From a virus: 35,640 nt of DNA. Of this stretch, positions 4,937 to 23,066 are shown piece by piece (the first letter of the stretch is position 1; each line of letters starts with the position of its first letter). The stretch covers positions 1 to 35,640 of IMG/VR virus record IMGVR_UViG_3300008110_000183; one strand, written 5' to 3'. A program made the position numbers and the translations under genes. Below the pieces are notes generated by a model. That model was not told where the DNA came from and made no database searches. It was given only the letters and a program-made list of their open reading frames with translations.

Positions 4937-5115
4937 GCGTCCAACTCTGAGACTCGCAGGATCGACTGAACCTGCTGATCAGGACAAAGCCCCAGAGCTT
5001 TCATCCTCGCGGTGAAAGCATCTGGAGCAAGAACGAACAGGTCGTGTGTACCACCGTGTCGCGGGTGCATCCTGACCCGGTACTCGTAATCTTCCACAAC
5101 CTGCTCGACGGTCAC
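4933..5115 (-). CDS. small protein translationally coupled to DNA polymerase
   Basis: A 60-residue protein with a GTG start that overlaps the TGA of the polymerase gene (GTGA), so ribosomes finishing the polymerase probably reinitiate here. The sequence (VEQVVEDYEYRVRMHPRHGG, then LFVLAPDAFTARMKALGLCP) looks like a small alpha/beta protein. No known motif. The coupling suggests a helper of replication, which is inference. Confidence 0.6.
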   Translation of the reverse strand: MTVEQVVEDYEYRVRMHPRHGGTHDLFVLAPDAFTARMKALGLCPDQQVQSILRVSELDA

Positions 5116-6938
5116 TTCGCTTGGTTCCAGCTACCCCCGACCTTAGCTTCGGCAAGCGGTGGAATCTCACCTAACCACTTCGCTTCAGCTTCCTCCATCA
5201 CAGACTGCAACTGGATAGCCCAAGCGTTTGCGTGCTCTTCTGCGACGAGCAGGATGATCTCGTCATGCACCACGCCGGCCAAACGCACCACGTCCTCCCG
5301 GTCTGCGTGAAGCAGCGGCCACAACTTGCCGAGCGTAAGTTTAAGGACTGCTGCGCCAGCTCCCTGGATTGGTGTATTACAGCGCGTGGTGAGCTTATTG
5401 TTCTCGCCCGGTAAAAACCGCCGCAAGCCCGAGATGCGTATGCGGATAGATGGATTGTCCTTAGCCGCATCAGCATCGCGAGCATTTTTGCGCTGCCATG
5501 CGGAGATGCCTTTATATGCAGCGTGGAACTTTTCCCGCACCTCCGCAGCCTCATCAAGATCCATCTGGATTCCGGTCGACGCTGCATAGTTCCTAAGCCC
5601 TTTTGCACCCGACCCATATAGCAATCCGAAGTTCGCGCTTTTGCTGATCTGGCGCTGTTCCTTTGTAACTTCATCCTCAGCGACCCCATAAATCTGCGTC
5701 GCCGTAATCGTATGCAGGTCCTTTCCCTGCTGGAACACCTGAGTCATAAGAGAATCCTTAGCTTCCGCCGCCGCCAACCTCAACTCCATCTGCCCGTAAT
5801 CTGCTACAACAAACTTCCAGCCAGCCGGCGCCTGTACACACGCTCTAAACCGCTGGTCACGCGGAATCTGCTGAAGATTAGGGCTCATACATGACATCCT
5901 TCCGGTATCAGCCCCCATTTGCATATAGCTGGCACGAATAAAACCATCCTTCGCCAAATTCTTCAACAAAGTCTCGGCCATTTGCCGCTTCTTTTCTACT
6001 TTCTTCCACCGCAAGTAATCAGCAACAACCTTGTGATCACCCACATACTCCTGCAGCGCCATCCGACTGGCGCTGGGTTTGCCGTTCTTCGCATCAATCG
6101 GCGCTTCGCCCAACAACGCTGTAAATTTCCTTAGCAACTGAGCCGGACTGTTGAGATTAAACGTATCTGGATCCGCCTTCTTACCTTTTGCTGCGGGCTT
6201 TGTCTGGTACAACAGCTTCCCGTCAAGTCCCCGGCACAGTTTGTGACCTGCGGGCAACGCAGCATCAAAGTCCTCAATAAACTTTTCTCCGACTTCGTGG
6301 TGTTCAATATCTAAATCCTCAATGAGTTTAATAAGATCCTGCTTATTAAAGGGAAGGCCCGTTCGCCATAATTGCGCCATAGCCGGCAACGCACTGCATT
6401 CCAAGTACCAAGCCGGATGCAGCGCCGCCGTCGCCATCCGCTGCTGGATCTGATCAAACAAGTCCAAAAGCACCAGCACATCTTTCGCCGCATACTGCAG
6501 CTGGCTCTCGGTCAAATCGCCCGACCAATCACTTTTCTGCTCCTCCTTAGAAATACCCTCGTGCAAGTAACGCTTCACCAAGTGCTGGAGCCCGTGCTTC
6601 ACGTTGGGCATCCCATTGGTGAGGATCCGACTCGCCAGCATGGTGCACAAAACCTTACCCGCCGGATAAATTTCATGCTCCTGAAGCCAGCCAAGGTCAA
6701 AAACAGCATTGTGCGCCACCCATGTGCGCTCCACGCTGAAAAACTCCTCGACCTCAATCCAGTCGTTGTCATCCAACGAAAAGCAGTCGAGCACCACAGG
6801 CAACTTGCCTGGAGTACCCAACTGCAATAACCGCATCCCACCCATCTTTGGCTGGAGCTGCGTCGTTTCCGAGTCAAACGCAATCAGTGTCGCATCGTCG
6901 AGCGTGTGGAGGTGCTCGATCCCTTGAAGGAAGTCCAA
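5112..6938 (-). CDS. family A DNA polymerase with 3'-5' exonuclease domain
   Basis: A 608-residue replicative polymerase. Residues about 15-190 form a DnaQ-like proofreading domain (FDSETT at about 20, AHNAVFDL, YAAKDVLVLLDL). The polymerase domain follows: GRMSCMSPNLQQIPRD, motif A with VADYGQMELR at about 379, motif B with KSANFGLLYG at about 429, motif C with VVHDEI at about 555. There is no 5'-3' flap nuclease domain, as is usual for phage enzymes of this length. The position equivalent to E. coli Phe762 is Phe (the F in KSANFG). It copies the phage genome in the host cytoplasm, together with the PrimPol-helicase at 11868 and the ssDNA-binding protein at 14445. Confidence 0.97.
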   Translation of the reverse strand: MDFLQGIEHLHTLDDATLIAFDSETTQLQPKMGGMRLLQLGTPGKLPVVLDCFSLDDNDWIEVEEFFSVERTWVAHNAVFDLGWLQEHEIYPAGKVLCTMLASRILTNGMPNVKHGLQHLVKRYLHEGISKEEQKSDWSGDLTESQLQYAAKDVLVLLDLFDQIQQRMATAALHPAWYLECSALPAMAQLWRTGLPFNKQDLIKLIEDLDIEHHEVGEKFIEDFDAALPAGHKLCRGLDGKLLYQTKPAAKGKKADPDTFNLNSPAQLLRKFTALLGEAPIDAKNGKPSASRMALQEYVGDHKVVADYLRWKKVEKKRQMAETLLKNLAKDGFIRASYMQMGADTGRMSCMSPNLQQIPRDQRFRACVQAPAGWKFVVADYGQMELRLAAAEAKDSLMTQVFQQGKDLHTITATQIYGVAEDEVTKEQRQISKSANFGLLYGSGAKGLRNYAASTGIQMDLDEAAEVREKFHAAYKGISAWQRKNARDADAAKDNPSIRIRISGLRRFLPGENNKLTTRCNTPIQGAGAAVLKLTLGKLWPLLHADREDVVRLAGVVHDEIILLVAEEHANAWAIQLQSVMEEAEAKWLGEIPPLAEAKVGGSWNQAK

Positions 6939-6963: not shown

Positions 6964-7239
6964 CTACTCTAGCAGGCTGTCAAGCTCCCGTGCAGAGCAC
7001 AAGTCGGCTGCCGCGAGTGTCCCACCCTCGGGAAGTCCCAGCAAACACCGCTTGTCCCAATGCACACAGCACCGACACGGCCCCCCATCCTCCTGGGGCT
7101 TGTAACTCTGCCGAATCCTCTCCATGCGAATCTCCAGTAACCCTGCAGCACTGGAGCGATAGCACTTCATACACATCACTGAGTTGGTTGTTTGTTTGCC
7201 GCACTGCTGGCACGGCCTGCTGTTGATCGAAATAGCCAT
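6964..7239 (-). CDS. Cys-rich zinc-binding protein
   Basis: A 91-residue protein with two Cys clusters: CQQCGK...CMKC at about residues 10-25, and CRCCVHWDKRCLLG with a further Cys toward the end. Each could hold one zinc ion. The ATG at 7239 overlaps the upstream TGA, and a GTG one codon earlier (7242) is also possible. It lies directly before the polymerase gene, and paired zinc clusters suggest binding of nucleic acid or a replication partner. The family is not named. Confidence 0.7.
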   Translation of the reverse strand: MAISINSRPCQQCGKQTTNSVMCMKCYRSSAAGLLEIRMERIRQSYKPQEDGGPCRCCVHWDKRCLLGLPEGGTLAAADLCSARELDSLLE

Positions 7240-7448
7240 CACGAAAAATGAACACGTAAAAATCCAGGTAAACGCCGAAGAAGATGCCTATGAGAGTGCA
7301 TTGCAGCTCCCTGCGGCAGCTCTACCTCAACAGTAAAAACAGAGTACCCGCAATTAGAACACTTCCTTTTGCGGAGTATTGATTCAGCGGTGTCGTGGCA
7401 AGTGCGCTCCACATCAATCCGCTCGTGATCACAGTTAGCGCACCGCAT
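7239..7448 (-). CDS. NrdR-like zinc ribbon protein, zinc ribbon only
   Basis: A 69-residue protein that begins MRCANCDHERIDVERTC and continues to RKRKCSNCGYSVFTVE. This is the pattern of the N-terminal zinc ribbon of the transcription factor NrdR (CxxC, Arg-rich stretch, CxxC, then F-T-x-E). The ATP-cone domain of NrdR is absent, so it cannot sense nucleotides as NrdR does. It could bind DNA or host RNA polymerase. Its start and stop overlap the neighbouring genes by one or a few bases, showing tight coupling. Confidence 0.7.
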   Translation of the reverse strand: MRCANCDHERIDVERTCHDTAESILRKRKCSNCGYSVFTVEVELPQGAAMHSHRHLLRRLPGFLRVHFS

Positions 7449-7639
7449 CAGTCAACCCAGCTCCAAGCGATCTTTTTACAAATACGCCAAGCGTGCTTTG
7501 GATCAACATCAAACTCATCCGCGAGTTTTCGGTAAGACCACCCTTCTGCTTGTAATCTGCGCATTTTCTGTACAAGTTCTGGCGTAAGAATCGCGGCGAA
7601 ATTTTCCTCCCCGCGTTTGAAAGGCTTAGTAGTAACCAT
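7448..7639 (-). CDS. small helix-turn-helix protein
   Basis: A 63-residue protein. Residues about 18-55 have a clear helix-turn-helix of the resolvase/transposase type: LTPELVQKMRRLQAEGWSYR and then KLADEFDVDPKHAWRICKK. The N-terminus is basic. It resembles the C-terminal HTH of the protein at 8611, so the phage may carry two related small DNA binders. A role in early transcription or replication is inferred from its place in the replication cluster. Confidence 0.75.
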   Translation of the reverse strand: MVTTKPFKRGEENFAAILTPELVQKMRRLQAEGWSYRKLADEFDVDPKHAWRICKKIAWSWVD

Positions 7640-7862: not shown

Positions 7863-8105
7863 TCAGCCCTCCCGGTAAGCCTCAGTCGCCAGTCGATTGA
7901 TCAACCGCGTGAGATACCAGTGGCACTTCCGCGCATCCTCCAAGGAATCTTTTTTCAGCCACATGCGGCTGAGGTATTTGAGGCACTGCCACTGGAGCGC
8001 ACCAGCAACCGGATCAGGCGCATGTTGCGACCAGTCCTCCAGCACATCAATCGCCTCAAACTTCCCGGCGGTGTAATGCCGGGGGTGGTGCACTGGGTCG
8101 CTCAT
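7863..8105 (-). CDS. DUF3310 protein
   Basis: An 80-residue protein with the DUF3310 pattern: HHPRHYTAGKFEAIDVLEDW at the start, then LQWQCLKYLSRMWLKKDSLE and a final helix. DUF3310 proteins are frequent near phage nucleotide-metabolism genes, but their biochemical role is not established. Its ATG overlaps the stop of the dCTP deaminase gene (ATGA), which supports a link to nucleotide supply. Confidence 0.85.
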   Translation of the reverse strand: MSDPVHHPRHYTAGKFEAIDVLEDWSQHAPDPVAGALQWQCLKYLSRMWLKKDSLEDARKCHWYLTRLINRLATEAYREG

Positions 8106-8614
8106 CCCTTGGAACCCTGCACAGACGTGTCACCTTGGTACCTCCCAGTGTGGGAGTAGTCCTTGGACGGCAGCATCGTCATCCGATGGAACACGATCTG
8201 CGCAATCCGCATCCCAGGCCACAGCGCAACCGGGTGCATCATCCGCGCGTTCTGCAGTTCCAGCGTTAGCCTCCCACAGTATCCCGGGTCGATGTACCCA
8301 GCAAGGAGATGCTCAACCCCCTCCCTGGCACGACTGGACTTCAACGCCAGCTGCCCAGCAATACAGTCCGGCAACCGGAACTCCTCAACCGTCTCCGCAA
8401 GGATGAACTCATGCGGCTGGAGCATGAACGGCTCTTCCTCCGTATGCCCAGCAATGGAAAAGGGCATCAGCTTAGGTGTTGACGACAACTCCACCAACAG
8501 GTTCTCGCCGAGTCTCACATCAAGACTCGCGGGATTCACCAAGCCTGGATCAAAGGGAGTGACAAGCTCCCTCCGCGCCAGCGTGTGAATGTCAATATCA
8601 CACAAGATGCTCAC
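8102..8614 (-). CDS. dcd: dCTP deaminase
   Basis: A 170-residue enzyme of the dCTP deaminase/dUTPase superfamily. The visible motifs are KSSRAREG (about 93-100), GYIDPGYCGRLTLELQN with the catalytic Glu, PVALWPGMRIAQIVF, and a C-terminal GRYQGD loop that closes over the substrate. It converts dCTP to dUTP, the first step toward extra dTTP, or does both deamination and dUTP hydrolysis in bifunctional members, which sequence alone cannot separate. It overlaps both neighbours by 4 bases, as part of one translationally coupled operon. Confidence 0.9.
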   Translation of the reverse strand: MSILCDIDIHTLARRELVTPFDPGLVNPASLDVRLGENLLVELSSTPKLMPFSIAGHTEEEPFMLQPHEFILAETVEEFRLPDCIAGQLALKSSRAREGVEHLLAGYIDPGYCGRLTLELQNARMMHPVALWPGMRIAQIVFHRMTMLPSKDYSHTGRYQGDTSVQGSKG

Positions 8615-9018
8615 GCCGCAGCCTCAGCAATCTCCTGCTGGAGCTGTACATGCTTCCAAGTCTTATTCCACTTGATGCAGTTGATCGTGGTGGGGTGGAC
8701 TCCGAATTCCTTGGCGATCTTGCCCACCGACTTCCCACCAGCGGCCAGCTGGCGCTTAATCTCCAGCACCTTCACGTCAGTCAACACCGACACCCCGCGC
8801 TTACCCTTGCGGCTGGACTTACGAGTCTTACTCTGAGACTCCGGCTTCTGTACGGATTTTGTCCGTACAATGCACTCTCCAGCGGGCAGGGGAATGGTCT
8901 GCTTGGAGTTGGTCAGGTCCAGTTCAACGTGCTGGCACGTATCAAGAGCAAAGCGAGCAGCATCAAGAGCCTTGATGACCTGATCAAACTGAGCTTCAGA
9001 AAGGATGTACATGTTCAT
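8611..9018 (-). CDS. HTH DNA-binding protein
   Basis: A 135-residue protein. The first 40 residues are helical (MNMYILSEAQFDQVIKALDA), a basic linker rich in Lys/Ser follows, and residues about 80-125 hold a resolvase-type helix-turn-helix (LEIKRQLAAGGKSVGKIAKE, then FGVHPTTINCIKW). The frame is open up to 9105, but the added residues are not protein-like, so I prefer the ATG at 9018; 9012 is also possible. It overlaps dcd by 4 bases. Probably an early regulator or an origin/branch binder. Confidence 0.75.
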   Translation of the reverse strand: MNMYILSEAQFDQVIKALDAARFALDTCQHVELDLTNSKQTIPLPAGECIVRTKSVQKPESQSKTRKSSRKGKRGVSVLTDVKVLEIKRQLAAGGKSVGKIAKEFGVHPTTINCIKWNKTWKHVQLQQEIAEAAA

Positions 9019-9061
9019 AGGATGGAACGTGTGCAGTGTAGTAGGCAAGAGCGGGTCTGTG

Positions 9062-9391
9062 TCAATAGCTAATCCGCACAGTCGCTGTTCCATCGAGTGG
9101 AACACCTAAACGATGTGCTGCACCAGCAGAAAGATCAATGCTGCCGCAGTCACACCGATCAGTAATTGGTACCAGCAGTGCTCGCCCCTGGTGCGAGACG
9201 CGCACTTTGGTGCCGCACGGCAACCACGGGTGCGCAGCACTTACACCCCAGTGCCGATACACACTGCCGCAATACGCCACCTCCCCGTGATATTCCGGGT
9301 GGTAAACGGTTGCTGTGACCTCCCTGCCTGTGTGATGTGCCAGTGCCGGCCCGTTAAACACAAGTGCTGCTGCAAGTAAAAAGCGCTTCAT
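9062..9391 (-). CDS. secreted RlpA-like double-psi beta-barrel protein
   Basis: A 109-residue protein with a classic signal peptide (MKRFLLAAALVFNGPALA, cleavage after residue about 18) and a mature domain of the RlpA/DPBB type: ATVYHPEYHGEVAYCG, AAHPWLPCGTKVRV, ITDRCDCGSIDLSAGAAHRL. The Asp in ITDR and in SIDLS match positions conserved in RlpA-like proteins. In bacteria such domains cut peptidoglycan strands lacking stem peptides or bind glycans. Here it could act in the periplasm during lysis or alter the envelope early in infection, because it sits in the replication cluster and not beside the endolysin. Confidence 0.8.
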   Translation of the reverse strand: MKRFLLAAALVFNGPALAHHTGREVTATVYHPEYHGEVAYCGSVYRHWGVSAAHPWLPCGTKVRVSHQGRALLVPITDRCDCGSIDLSAGAAHRLGVPLDGTATVRISY

Positions 9392-11867: not shown

Positions 11868-14303
11868 TTACCAGATCTCGGCCTCCTTTGTCAGGCGCTC
11901 CATTTCTTCGGGAGTGCGCCAGTTCTCGCGCGTGAAGATAGCGCTGTCCTCGTGTCCCAAACTCTCAGAACCCCTGCGCTGCAACGGATCTGCTGCTTTT
12001 AGTTGTCCCGTTTTGTCCCGTTTTGTCCCAACCTGTCCTTTTTGCGTCCCAGAAGCCGTTTCAGGGACAGCTTTAGGACAACTTGGGACAGAACGGGACA
12101 AACTGGGACAACCGATTTCCTGAGATCCAGCTCCAGCACTGGATTCTTCTTCTTTGGGACAACTTGTACCTCCTCCCCCCCTGCGCGCGAGAACTGCTGA
12201 GTAGCGCTTGCTGGAACGATCTCCCTCAACCACCACCAATCCCCGGTCAACCAAGCGCTGGAGCGATTTCGAGATGGCGTTGACGCTGCCGCCCAGCAGA
12301 GGGTCAGCGTTCAACTCCGCCTTGGTCATTGGCACGCCCTTGGTACGCAGGCGCTGGAGCACCCGGTCGATGATCGAAGCTGGCGCCGCCGAATCCACGC
12401 CCTCCGCAGCTGGCAGATCCTGAAGCGAGAACGTGAGGTCTTCCTTCTGGCGCAGGACCAGCTGCTTGCCTTCGTTGCCCTCACGGCTCTTACCGATGGT
12501 GATAAGCCGCGCAGAGGCCCCCACACGCTCCAAATCAGCCTTCTCTGGGCGGTTGATGCCCCAAGACTCATCCACGGCGTCCTGGAGCGCTGAGGTGCCT
12601 CTGAAGTCGCCGCTCTTGGCGGCGTGGTGGATAAAGACGATGGTGGTTGCCGGGAAGCTCTCACCGTTCTCGGCGCTGTACCAATAGATGGGCTCGGCGT
12701 ACTCAGCCTTGTTCTGGTCGTACGCACAACCGCGCATACAGGCGGTCACCGAGTCCCACACCACGAGTTTGGGGCGATGCTCCTCGATTTGCTGGATAAA
12801 CCAGGGATACCAAAGCATTGACACTTTGTTCTGTACTACAACCGGATCGTCAGCAGTGAACTCCAAATCCTGGAACTGCTTGCGCATCCGCCGGCTGTTC
12901 TGATCGCCGTTAAGCCACAGCACCTTGCCCTGCTCGACTGGCACTTCAGCACCCCGCACAGAGAACGGAATCCCTCGGGCAATGTGCTTGGCCAAGGTCA
13001 GCACCGCCATCGTTTTGCCACAGCCACCACGCCCGTGGATCAATACGGTGCCGGGCTTCGGCAGCAGATCCGGGATCAGGTATTCGATTGGCGCGTCCTC
13101 CATGGCAAAAATTTCTTGCAGGCTGCCCCCCTGCGATCCACGGCGGTATTCCTGGTCCGCGATGAGCAGCCGCACAACCGCCGCCGCTTCCCGGTAACCA
13201 GCCTCCAGCGCAATCTCGTGGAGCTTGTGCTGCACCTCTGAGGGATTGGGCAGCGCCATAGCTGCCGTGGCGCGTTTGACGATCTCTTCGTGCGAAAGAC
13301 CAGTGGTGCGGAACCGCTGCACCCGATCTTGTTCAGCACCATCAACAACCTTCCGCAGATCCTCCGAAAGCCACAGGCGCCCCGGCATCTGCTGGTCCGC
13401 CATCCAAAACAGCGTCCCCAGACTCACCGGCCCCTTCCGAAAGCTCTTCCAGACCTCCTCACAGGGATTGCCTTCTGCCCAATCCTGTGAAAATTCGGGG
13501 TCTTCTGCAGACCACGCCGACCAAAGCGTCAAACCAAGGTCAGTCGGCAACTCCGAGTGGATCGCCATCCCAACCTTGACCCAGTGATCCCGGCTGCCAT
13601 TGCCTTGACCAGGAATCACCCGCAGCGCCGACTGGATGATCTCAGCAATCTCAGCTGGATCCCGATCCGAGAAATCCAGCGCCTTGCGGTTCTTGATGAA
13701 GCCGCCGTCCTGCACATCCTTGCCATTGGCATCCCGCATCTCCGCCAACAACCACTCCGGCGCCTCAGGAATTGCCTCCAGGTCGCCTTCAAAGCCGTAC
13801 TCACCAGCTGGAGCCTTCCCATCACTGGAGCCCGGATACGCCCCGTAGAGGACGCCCTGACGGCCCCAGAGCACCTCGTACCCAGCGCCGGTATCCGACA
13901 ACCCAAAACCCTTTACAACGCCCCACAGAGCCTCTGGGACGCGAAACAGGTACTTCGCCGCATTGGCCTTGGTCGACGTGATGACTGGAGCAGCCTCCAG
14001 CGACTCCCCCCACTTCTTTTTGAGACGACTGAGATTCCGATCCACATCAAGAATCACGAGTCCCGCACTGCGAGCGCCCGTAAACGCCCCCACCGCTTGG
14101 AACACATCAGGCTTGCGCTCGATCTGCAGCGCCACATCCGACGGCGCCATCACCGTGTGGTGACTGCGCTCTAACGGTGTCTTGCCCTTCGAGATTTTCC
14201 CGGACTGGATCGCCTGCCCTTTGGCGTAAATCGGTGCGTAGGCGATGCCCACGGGCAGCTGGCGCACAAAAGCCAGCAGCTCCTGCGTCTTACCTTGAGA
14301 CAT
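11868..14303 (-). CDS. PrimPol-helicase fusion (replicative primase/helicase)
   Basis: An 811-residue protein. Residues about 10-200 resemble the prim-pol domain (VILDVDRN with the DxD metal motif, then ITSTKANAAKYLFRVP, where the expected sxH His is not seen). Residues about 215-320 fit a PriCT-2 domain (RDHWVKVGMAIHSE, LFWMAD). Residues about 400-640 are a RecA-like helicase: Walker A HGRGGCGKT at about 421, Walker B LVVWDS at about 511, FIHHAAKSGD after it. A winged-helix segment follows, then a low-complexity tail whose DNA holds the candidate origin array. It primes and unwinds DNA for the polymerase at 5112. It is the first gene of the leftward cluster. Confidence 0.9.
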   Translation of the reverse strand: MSQGKTQELLAFVRQLPVGIAYAPIYAKGQAIQSGKISKGKTPLERSHHTVMAPSDVALQIERKPDVFQAVGAFTGARSAGLVILDVDRNLSRLKKKWGESLEAAPVITSTKANAAKYLFRVPEALWGVVKGFGLSDTGAGYEVLWGRQGVLYGAYPGSSDGKAPAGEYGFEGDLEAIPEAPEWLLAEMRDANGKDVQDGGFIKNRKALDFSDRDPAEIAEIIQSALRVIPGQGNGSRDHWVKVGMAIHSELPTDLGLTLWSAWSAEDPEFSQDWAEGNPCEEVWKSFRKGPVSLGTLFWMADQQMPGRLWLSEDLRKVVDGAEQDRVQRFRTTGLSHEEIVKRATAAMALPNPSEVQHKLHEIALEAGYREAAAVVRLLIADQEYRRGSQGGSLQEIFAMEDAPIEYLIPDLLPKPGTVLIHGRGGCGKTMAVLTLAKHIARGIPFSVRGAEVPVEQGKVLWLNGDQNSRRMRKQFQDLEFTADDPVVVQNKVSMLWYPWFIQQIEEHRPKLVVWDSVTACMRGCAYDQNKAEYAEPIYWYSAENGESFPATTIVFIHHAAKSGDFRGTSALQDAVDESWGINRPEKADLERVGASARLITIGKSREGNEGKQLVLRQKEDLTFSLQDLPAAEGVDSAAPASIIDRVLQRLRTKGVPMTKAELNADPLLGGSVNAISKSLQRLVDRGLVVVEGDRSSKRYSAVLARRGGGGTSCPKEEESSAGAGSQEIGCPSLSRSVPSCPKAVPETASGTQKGQVGTKRDKTGQLKAADPLQRRGSESLGHEDSAIFTRENWRTPEEMERLTKEAEIW
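11945..12161. repeat. dyad-symmetric iteron array, candidate replication origin
   Basis: TGTCCC occurs at 11953, 12004, 12014 and 12024, with variants TGTCCT at 12034 and CGTCCC at 12045. The inverse GGGACA occurs at 12064, 12085, 12095, 12105 and 12156, with AGGACA at 12075. Every left site mirrors a right site about a single centre at 12057, including the variant pair TGTCCT/AGGACA and the far pair 11953/12156. The inner sites are phased at 10 bases, one helical turn, so proteins could line up on one face. The array lies within codons about 714-783 of the PrimPol gene, in a low-complexity linker. Confidence 0.7.
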
Positions 14304-21800: not shown

Positions 21801-23066
21801 ATGTCTTACCTACTACATAACTCCTCTATTACCACCTCCTACGGACTCAGCACCGCCGGCGGAGGCGCCGCCGCTTCTGTTGGAGCAACCGACGCCTTCG
21901 GCCGCATCCGCACGTCCGCACCGCTAACACTTTTCGATTCCAGCCACCGATATAGCGACAACGGCCTGTGGGCAACCTCCACAACAAGCGGGGGTAGCTC
22001 AACATTTGACGCCAACGCCGGCCTGGTCAACCTCGCCGTAACCACCACCTCCGGTTCCGAGGTCATCCGCGAAACCACCAAGTGCTTCTCGTACCAGCCG
22101 GGCAAATCCCTGCTGGTGATGTCGACATTTACGATGGCCGCCGCCAAAACCGGCCTCCGCCAGCGCGTCGGCTACTACGGCGCCAGCAACGGCATGTACC
22201 TAGAACTTGCCAACAACGACCTCAACTTTGTCGAACGCAGCTCCTCCACCGGCTCGCTAGTCGAAACCCGCGTCCCCAAATCCAACTGGAACATCGACCC
22301 TCTGGATGGCACTGGCCCATCCAACCTCACACTTGACATAACAAAATCACAAATTCTATGGATGGACATCGAGTGGCTCGGCCTTGGCACCGTCCGCCTA
22401 GGTTTCGTCATTAACGGCAAATTCATCCACTGCCACTCCTTCCACCACGCCAACATCATCACTGGAACATACATAACAACCGCATCACTCCCTCTCCGCT
22501 ACGAAATAACAAACACCGCCACCACCGCAAGCACCAGCACCCTCAAACAAGTCTGCTCAACGGTTCTTTCCGAGGGCGGTTACGAACTTCGTGGTCTCCA
22601 GCAATCCATCGGCACCGCTATCACAGCTCCCTCCGCCCTCACACTCGCGGGCACTTACTACCCGATCATTTCTTTACGCCTTAAATCAGCACGATTAGAC
22701 GCAATCGTCATCCTTACTGCTATATCAATCATGGCGGCCTCCGCCAACGCCAACTACACCTGGCGCGTAGTCGCCTCCGCCACAACCACGGGCGGCACTT
22801 GGACTAGCGCAGGAACCAACTCCAGCGTCGAATACAACCTAACCGGCACCGCAACAACCGGCGGCCGCGTCCTAGCCGAAGGCTATTTCAGCTCCACCAA
22901 CCAAAGCACCACATCAGTCGACATCCTCAAAGAGGCCCTCTTCAAGTTTCAACTGGAACGCGACGGCCTTACATCAACACCTTACGAATTAAGCCTGCTG
23001 GTGGCAGCAAGCGTCGCAACTTCTAATGTGCACGCATCTATGGACTGGGAGGAAATCAGTCGCTAA
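21801..23066 (+). CDS. virion structural protein (cyanophage type)
   Basis: A 421-residue protein rich in Ser, Thr, Gly and beta strands. The segment AFGRIRTSAPLTLFDSSHRY and SDNGLWATS is typical, to my memory, of structural proteins in cyanophages. A Cys/His-containing middle (INGKFIHCHSFHHANIITG) and a C-terminal beta region follow. It may decorate the capsid or form part of the neck or a fibre. It starts 8 bases after the DUF6496 gene and overlaps the next start by one base. Confidence 0.75.
   Translation: MSYLLHNSSITTSYGLSTAGGGAAASVGATDAFGRIRTSAPLTLFDSSHRYSDNGLWATSTTSGGSSTFDANAGLVNLAVTTTSGSEVIRETTKCFSYQPGKSLLVMSTFTMAAAKTGLRQRVGYYGASNGMYLELANNDLNFVERSSSTGSLVETRVPKSNWNIDPLDGTGPSNLTLDITKSQILWMDIEWLGLGTVRLGFVINGKFIHCHSFHHANIITGTYITTASLPLRYEITNTATTASTSTLKQVCSTVLSEGGYELRGLQQSIGTAITAPSALTLAGTYYPIISLRLKSARLDAIVILTAISIMAASANANYTWRVVASATTTGGTWTSAGTNSSVEYNLTGTATTGGRVLAEGYFSSTNQSTTSVDILKEALFKFQLERDGLTSTPYELSLLVAASVATSNVHASMDWEEISR

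Follow-up and report, generated by a model that had tools for sequence, protein, structure and literature searches.

A dyad-symmetric array of TGTCC-type sites at the 3' end of a phage primase-helicase gene: a likely initiation site, very probably read by the encoded protein

For uncultivated lytic phages, the replication origin is seldom known. The window analyzed in this study is a virus record of 35,640 bp; its structural genes (terminase, portal, major head, scaffold, and tape measure) are of siphovirus type. At the 3' end of its PrimPol/PriCT_2/AAA_25 gene lies an array of short mirrored sites, which raises the question of what this array does and which protein reads it. Repeats in or beside initiator genes have been described before: in PICI/SaPI origins, iterons occur in two sets adjacent to the initiator gene (PMC6092414), and ori-lambda lies inside gene O (PMC7466680). 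Our explanation, which we consider likely, is that the array is a cis-acting initiation site, most probably the origin, of its own primase-helicase. An origin-like iteron array had been proposed in a sequence-only reading, and it remains the best-supported interpretation; a start of replication at the array has not been shown. The gene and the array comprise the following features (window coordinates).

11868..14303, minus strand: PrimPol-PriCT_2-AAA_25 primase-helicase gene, 811 aa, bearing the array
11953..12161, no strand: dyad-symmetric array of 12 TGTCCC-type sites, centre 12057
11953..12050, plus strand: half-array 1, TGTCC orientation (11953, 12004, 12014, 12024, 12034, 12045)
12064..12161, minus strand: half-array 2, GGACA orientation (12064, 12075, 12085, 12095, 12105, 12156)
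11945..11950, plus strand: extra TGTCCT site, unpaired
11920..11932, no strand: outer inverted-repeat arm CAGTTCTCGCGCG, dyad centre shared within 1 bp
12184..12196, no strand: outer inverted-repeat arm CGCGCGAGAACTG

In total, nine exact and three near TGTCCC/GGGACA sites are mirrored about 12057. Exact TGTCCC was found on the plus strand at 11953, 12004, 12014, and 12024, and exact GGGACA at 12064, 12085, 12095, 12105, and 12156, while TGTCCT (12034), AGGACA (12075), and CGTCCC (12045) are one base off. Within the arms the sites follow each other in 10-bp steps with a single step of 11, and the outer step is 51. The sequence-only reading had listed twelve sites, eight to nine of them exact, in six pairs about this centre, with the variant TGTCCT matched by AGGACA and an inner spacing of 10 bases. 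The count, all six pairs, and the variant match (12034 / 12075) held, as did the spacing apart from the one step of 11.

Taken by itself, the TGTCCC/GGGACA hexamer shows no enrichment across the window (20 occurrences, 16.6 expected). The cores TGTCC/GGACA are clustered, with 12 in one 250-bp stretch and no more than four in any such stretch elsewhere in the window, and five core pairs mirrored within 1 bp were obtained in 0/2000 random layouts. The density of sites is thus not a matter of chance. The extra TGTCCT at 11945 has no mirror partner. A 13-bp inverted repeat (11920-11932 / 12184-12196) has the same centre as the array within 1 bp. This outer repeat, given also as CTCGCGCG/CGCGCGAG, was mirrored in 15 freshwater and 19 marine loci; in the marine loci read, its right arm is non-coding. 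A further palindrome, CCAGTGCTGG, is located at 12120-12150 between the outer and inner sites, with CCAGTCAGGGACTGG at the same place in the other clade, and is possibly another binding site.

Regular, helically phased short sites, as expected of an iteron origin, are present: the steps are 10 bp, and offsets of 45/46, 51, and 61 bp are fixed across phages. An AT-rich melting region beside the iterons, also expected, is missing. None was found at the centre of the window array, which has 42–48% AT over its length, or in the central 31 bp of the arrays of relatives (26–61% AT). A GC-skew minimum, which the sequence-only reading had named as a check, gave no support; there was no minimum at the array (12 kb), and the skew was uninformative. 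The lack of an AT-rich centre and of a skew minimum, together with the incomplete mirroring of class C arrays described below, counts against the origin reading.

The 811-aa protein matched the Pfam domains PriCT_2 (2.5e-15) and AAA_25 (4.9e-22), and Prim-Pol below threshold. The nearest solved relative of its helicase part is RSF1010 RepA. Beyond the helicase, the following elements were predicted.

12195..12374, minus strand: winged-helix domain, residues 644-703 (AlphaFold2 and covariation peak)
12246-12284: recognition helix, residues 674-686 (AlphaFold2)
12207-12224: wing, residues 694-699 (AlphaFold2)
11919..12188, minus strand: disordered linker, residues 706-795, coded by the array region (pLDDT about 25-30)
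11874..11912, minus strand: C-terminal helix, residues 798-810, past the linker (AlphaFold2)

Confidence in the winged-helix model is moderate (pLDDT of the domain about 75–80), and its comparison with the PDB gave no match with E below 0.001. The earlier claim that the array lies inside the PrimPol-helicase gene held, and the parallel it drew with known phage origins in flexible linker regions is supported, the linker here being predicted as disordered. HTH proteins at 7448 and 8611 had been suggested as binders, and this did not hold. The proteins encoded at 7448-7639 and 8611-9105 match HNH endonuclease / HTH families and were rejected as candidates; the PrimPol-helicase itself, through its winged helix, is the likelier binder.

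Viral-contig scans yielded 147 loci with the gene (among them L149, from a genome collection), of which 139 were full length and 96 distinct. A TGTCC array, defined as at least four TGTCC/GGACA sites at the same place, was present in 96/96 distinct full-length freshwater relatives and was nearly always dyad-symmetric. Relatives that keep the protein and lose the repeats had been named in advance as the refuting case; the outcome was the opposite, and the repeats were kept. The arm of the window clade reads >0 >51 >61 >71 >81 and that of the other large freshwater clade >0 <45 >61 (>71), giving the mirrored geometries >51>10>10>10>..<10<10<10<51< and >45<16>..<16>45<. In both clades the arms are mirrored about the centre and the central gap is variable. 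Only the small class C clade (L033, L035, L045, L047) clearly departs from full mirror symmetry; its sites and outer triplets are kept.

A marine family with about 54% protein identity was reached via L149, a contig binned in a proteobacterium MAG. Its array (>46<13<14>..<14>13>46<) straddles the stop codon, the right arm lying beyond it. Because this arm is past the stop, and because the sites fall in all three reading frames, the array is an element selected as DNA and not a protein repeat. Conservation, dyad symmetry, fixed arms, and independence of coding are all shown by computation. In addition, 2.9 million viral contigs were scanned for bare 4-site arms, and 141 stretches were available for checking. 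This primase-helicase was encoded within 600 bp in 126 of them. Among the other 15, some hold arrays at the end of a contig or in a stretch severed from the gene, and in about ten the TGTCC runs are irregular or one-sided and belong to unrelated phages.

The window DNA had no match in INPHARED, and the protein search returned only distant relatives in phages and plasmids, including S-CBS4 and CyRepA1. Judged by terminase, the closest isolate is cyanophage S-2L (44%). No TGTCC array was found at the S-2L PrimPol, nor beside the RecA-like ATPase of S-CBS4.

The TGTCC core is constant, and the next 3–5 bases vary between phages (CACTG, CACCT, CCCC, AGCTG, CATTG, TTTT, or G..) and change together in all copies of a genome. 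The agreement of flanks within a genome holds for mirror partners and non-partners alike. Such concerted change among all copies indicates one trans-acting reader. Flank distance was compared with local protein distance, controlled for distance over residues 1–600. The correlation peaked at residues 673–708 (r 0.56 for all pairs, 0.76–0.78 for close pairs); the best of 2000 within-clade motif permutations reached 0.24, compared with 0.758 observed. Covariation was near zero in the primase (PriCT), weak in parts of the helicase (AAA, up to about 0.28), and low in the C-tail (r 0.05–0.19) and in the DNA just downstream (0.08–0.12). The C-tail was also above its (negative) permutation range, yet with an r of only 0.11.

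The top covarying columns were 678, 675, 676, and 681 in the recognition helix and 695–700 in the wing. The pairing of CC with K678 held in 95/96 genomes, that of TTTT with G678 in 96/96, and that of G with E/D675 in 95/96, and the motif class changed 24 times on the tree of residues 1–600. In the marine family, K was accompanied by CC in every genome having a clear consensus, R by CA in all but one, and H/Q by AG; Lys678 is paired with TGTCC-CC in the freshwater and marine families. Concerted change and covariation with the winged helix are shown by computation, as are the existence of one reader and the role of this domain as the covarying part; physical binding is inferred. Cognate-initiator specificity, another feature of iteron origins, is supported by covariation only, in the absence of binding data.

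Covariation of this kind might reflect linkage. Reader and array move together between close phages on the tree, for example in L053/L054 and L128/L135/L139. Since the two are adjacent and swapped together, linkage explains part of the covariation, and there were not enough phylogenetically independent pairs to reach p<0.05. That linkage accounts for all of it was rejected. The C-tail and the downstream DNA are equally near the array and do not covary, and the K/CC and R/CA pairings recur in the marine family. That the boundary is one-sided, that all copies change in concert, and that the pairings recur in the marine family argue against linkage alone.

In the proposed mechanism, several copies of the protein would attach to TGTCC-type sites, each by its C-terminal winged helix, and the 3–5 bases after TGTCC would be read by the recognition helix and wing. 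With the sites on one helix face and in two opposed half-arrays, two head-to-head assemblies, probably two helicase rings, would arise about the centre. These would open the duplex and lay down primers on both strands, so that two forks move outward. Because the array sits where the unstructured linker after the winged helix is encoded and protein sequence is unconstrained, reader and sites are passed on as a single cassette, which is exchanged among close phages. We regard it as very likely that the initiator-primase-helicase binds the array through this domain, although no binding experiment is available. That the array is a replication origin is likely, again without a replication experiment. 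The two opposed helicase assemblies, melting, priming, and bidirectional forks are inferred.

The symmetry of the locus also permits other explanations. The likeliest of these is a DNA cruciform or stem-loop origin as proposed for pRN1 and phage BIP-1, in which an extruded palindrome or hairpin is recognized by its structure. The array does sit in a degenerate large inverted repeat. On paper, the 226 nt as a whole can be folded into a single imperfect hairpin (-120.8 kcal/mol, z -11.9 as RNA; z -10.3 as DNA), and most relatives fold with z -4 to -12 and pairs on the dyad. Inter-site DNA is complementary at 0.40 in register compared with 0.25 off register, mirror sites have common flanks out to +12, and pRN1 has such a stem-loop 3' of its PrimPol-helicase-winged-helix gene (PMC4234260). 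A hairpin, however, requires neither the concerted change of non-partner copies nor the covariation with the winged helix. The strong fold is also not general, being weak or off-dyad in some arrays; in L033, L045, L081, L149, and L208 the sites are kept and folding on the dyad is slight or absent. Moreover, complementarity extends to only 40% of inter-site positions, and the inner gaps vary while the arms are fixed. Both a cruciform and an old inverted duplication held by two opposed protein assemblies are compatible with the data. The latter is preferred because the sites, and not the DNA between them, carry the conservation and because some arrays lack an on-dyad fold. Recognition by structure is therefore considered unlikely, but it is not excluded.

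The remaining rivals are all very unlikely. A terminator, attenuator, or translational signal in the mRNA would agree with the very stable predicted RNA fold, and an RNA hairpin had been mentioned as possible in the sequence-only reading. Mirrored mismatches, however, comprised 311 G.T and 362 A.C; the absence of a G.T excess means that G.U is not tolerated on the coding strand and makes it improbable that mRNA structure is under selection, so that this possibility is disfavoured. The two strands fold with similar stability, neither concerted change nor winged-helix covariation is explained, and Rfam gave no family at gathering score, with only sub-threshold hairpin matches to mir-9261. An operator, at which the protein or a repressor controls downstream genes, could be inferred from the position of the array just upstream of the next same-strand genes and, in the marine family, from its half-intergenic location. 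Initiators often autoregulate. Yet the array lies 2.1–2.35 kb into its own gene, far from its own promoter, and a 200-bp mirrored array of 6–12 sites exceeds the needs of an operator. Control of the next gene was rejected since its distance is not conserved: between the stop codon and the start of the closest conserved gene downstream lie anywhere from 3 to about 1080 bp, and the array is constant. Finally, the same winged helix might bind a partition (parS-like), packaging, or recombination site, and winged-helix centromere binders such as AspA are among its weak fold matches. Against this, the reader forms one protein with primase and helicase, two families keep the array with that gene, and the terminase large-subunit gene is 7.6 kb away.

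The literature searched for an array of this kind in PrimPol phages yielded analogues only. The PICI/SaPI rep-ori likewise has an initiator helicase with a C-terminal DNA-binding domain (PMC6092414, PMC7581432), there sometimes fused to a primase, and two sets of iterons immediately 3' of the initiator gene, for which binding as two hexamers was proposed. Here, in contrast, PrimPol/PriCT_2 is fused to an AAA_25 (RepA-like) ATPase in tailed phages, and the array is inside the coding sequence, exactly mirrored, and without an AT-rich centre. Two iteron sets at the 3' end of an initiator-helicase gene are thus common to both; phage satellite status is not, since terminase, portal, major head, and tape-measure genes are all present in the record itself. 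The earlier statement that opposed arrays are not a common described form therefore held only in part, given the two iteron sets of PICI/SaPI origins (PMC6092414), and the distinctive part of the layout is the exact mirror. Lambda O/ori shares the location of iterons inside the initiator's own gene (PMC7466680). Lambda has iterons together with an AT-rich tract and loads the host helicase, whereas the window has opposed arms, no AT tract, and an initiator with its own primase and helicase part.

In P4 alpha, primase, helicase, and an origin-repeat-binding winged helix are joined in one polypeptide (PMC4234260). Its primase is described there as Toprim-type, unlike the PrimPol of the window. 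The P4 helicase family and repeat sequence also differ from those of the window. Shared with pRN1 ORF904 and phage BIP-1 are PrimPol, helicase, and C-terminal winged helix, a putative origin that lies at the 3' end of the protein's own gene and consists of a large inverted repeat, and, in the BIP-1 protein, PriCT_2 as in the window protein (PMC4234260). They have an SF3 helicase, no iterons, and no specific binding was found, whereas the stem in the window is built of iterons and the helicase matches AAA_25 and RepA. At the RSF1010 origin, an iteron binder, a RepA-type helicase, and a primase act together (RepB'/RepA/RepC, PMC4234260), as three separate proteins compared with one in the window. 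In repABC plasmids oriV lies inside repC, within the initiator gene, and the C-terminal end of the initiator affects incompatibility; iterons are absent (PMC3155836). Because satellite status and the SF3 helicase fail and an AT-rich region is missing, the locus was not placed in a known family. It resembles self-encoded iteron-type origins outside the PICI/SaPI, pRN1/BIP-1, and lambda families, a statement made without comparison with lambda O or SaPI Rep.

Reader domain, sites, and a natural library of matched changes occur together in hundreds of genomes. Origin recognition, specificity code, and evolution are thus testable with one small domain and short DNA, and the mirror layout offers a clean model for placing opposed primase-helicases on DNA. 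Frequent specificity change also raises the question why phages rewrite their origins. In a bolder reading, an abundant phage group, cyanophage-like by its nearest relatives, would carry a self-contained reader-origin cassette. Specificity would switch frequently via a transferable code (K678:CC, R678:CA, G678:T, E675:G) and serve as a replication barcode against the origins of co-infecting relatives, the mirror layout loading two opposed primase-helicase rings. Taken jointly, these propositions are tentative, and we lean slightly against them.

Several minor observations were made on the way. One-sided TGTCC/GGACA runs in 10-bp steps were seen in non-coding DNA of phages without this primase, at L237 2162-2300 (same run in L289), L232 10555 (L246, L284), and L234 6831 (L280); the L237 run is directly upstream of the terminase small-subunit gene. 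In the marine loci L149, L159, L172, and L211, several CGCTCCA copies occur near the array, around the gene end. In the window, a dCTP deaminase-like gene (8102-8614) is found beside a PolA-type DNA polymerase (5112-6938), and the terminase is nearest to that of the 2-aminoadenine phage S-2L. A small protein encoded at 7239-7448 has a sub-threshold match to an NrdR-like zinc-ribbon domain. The virion structural protein encoded at 21801-23066 shows 67–71% identity to proteins of cyanomyoviruses and phage HMO-2011, whereas other genes of the window resemble those of siphoviruses.
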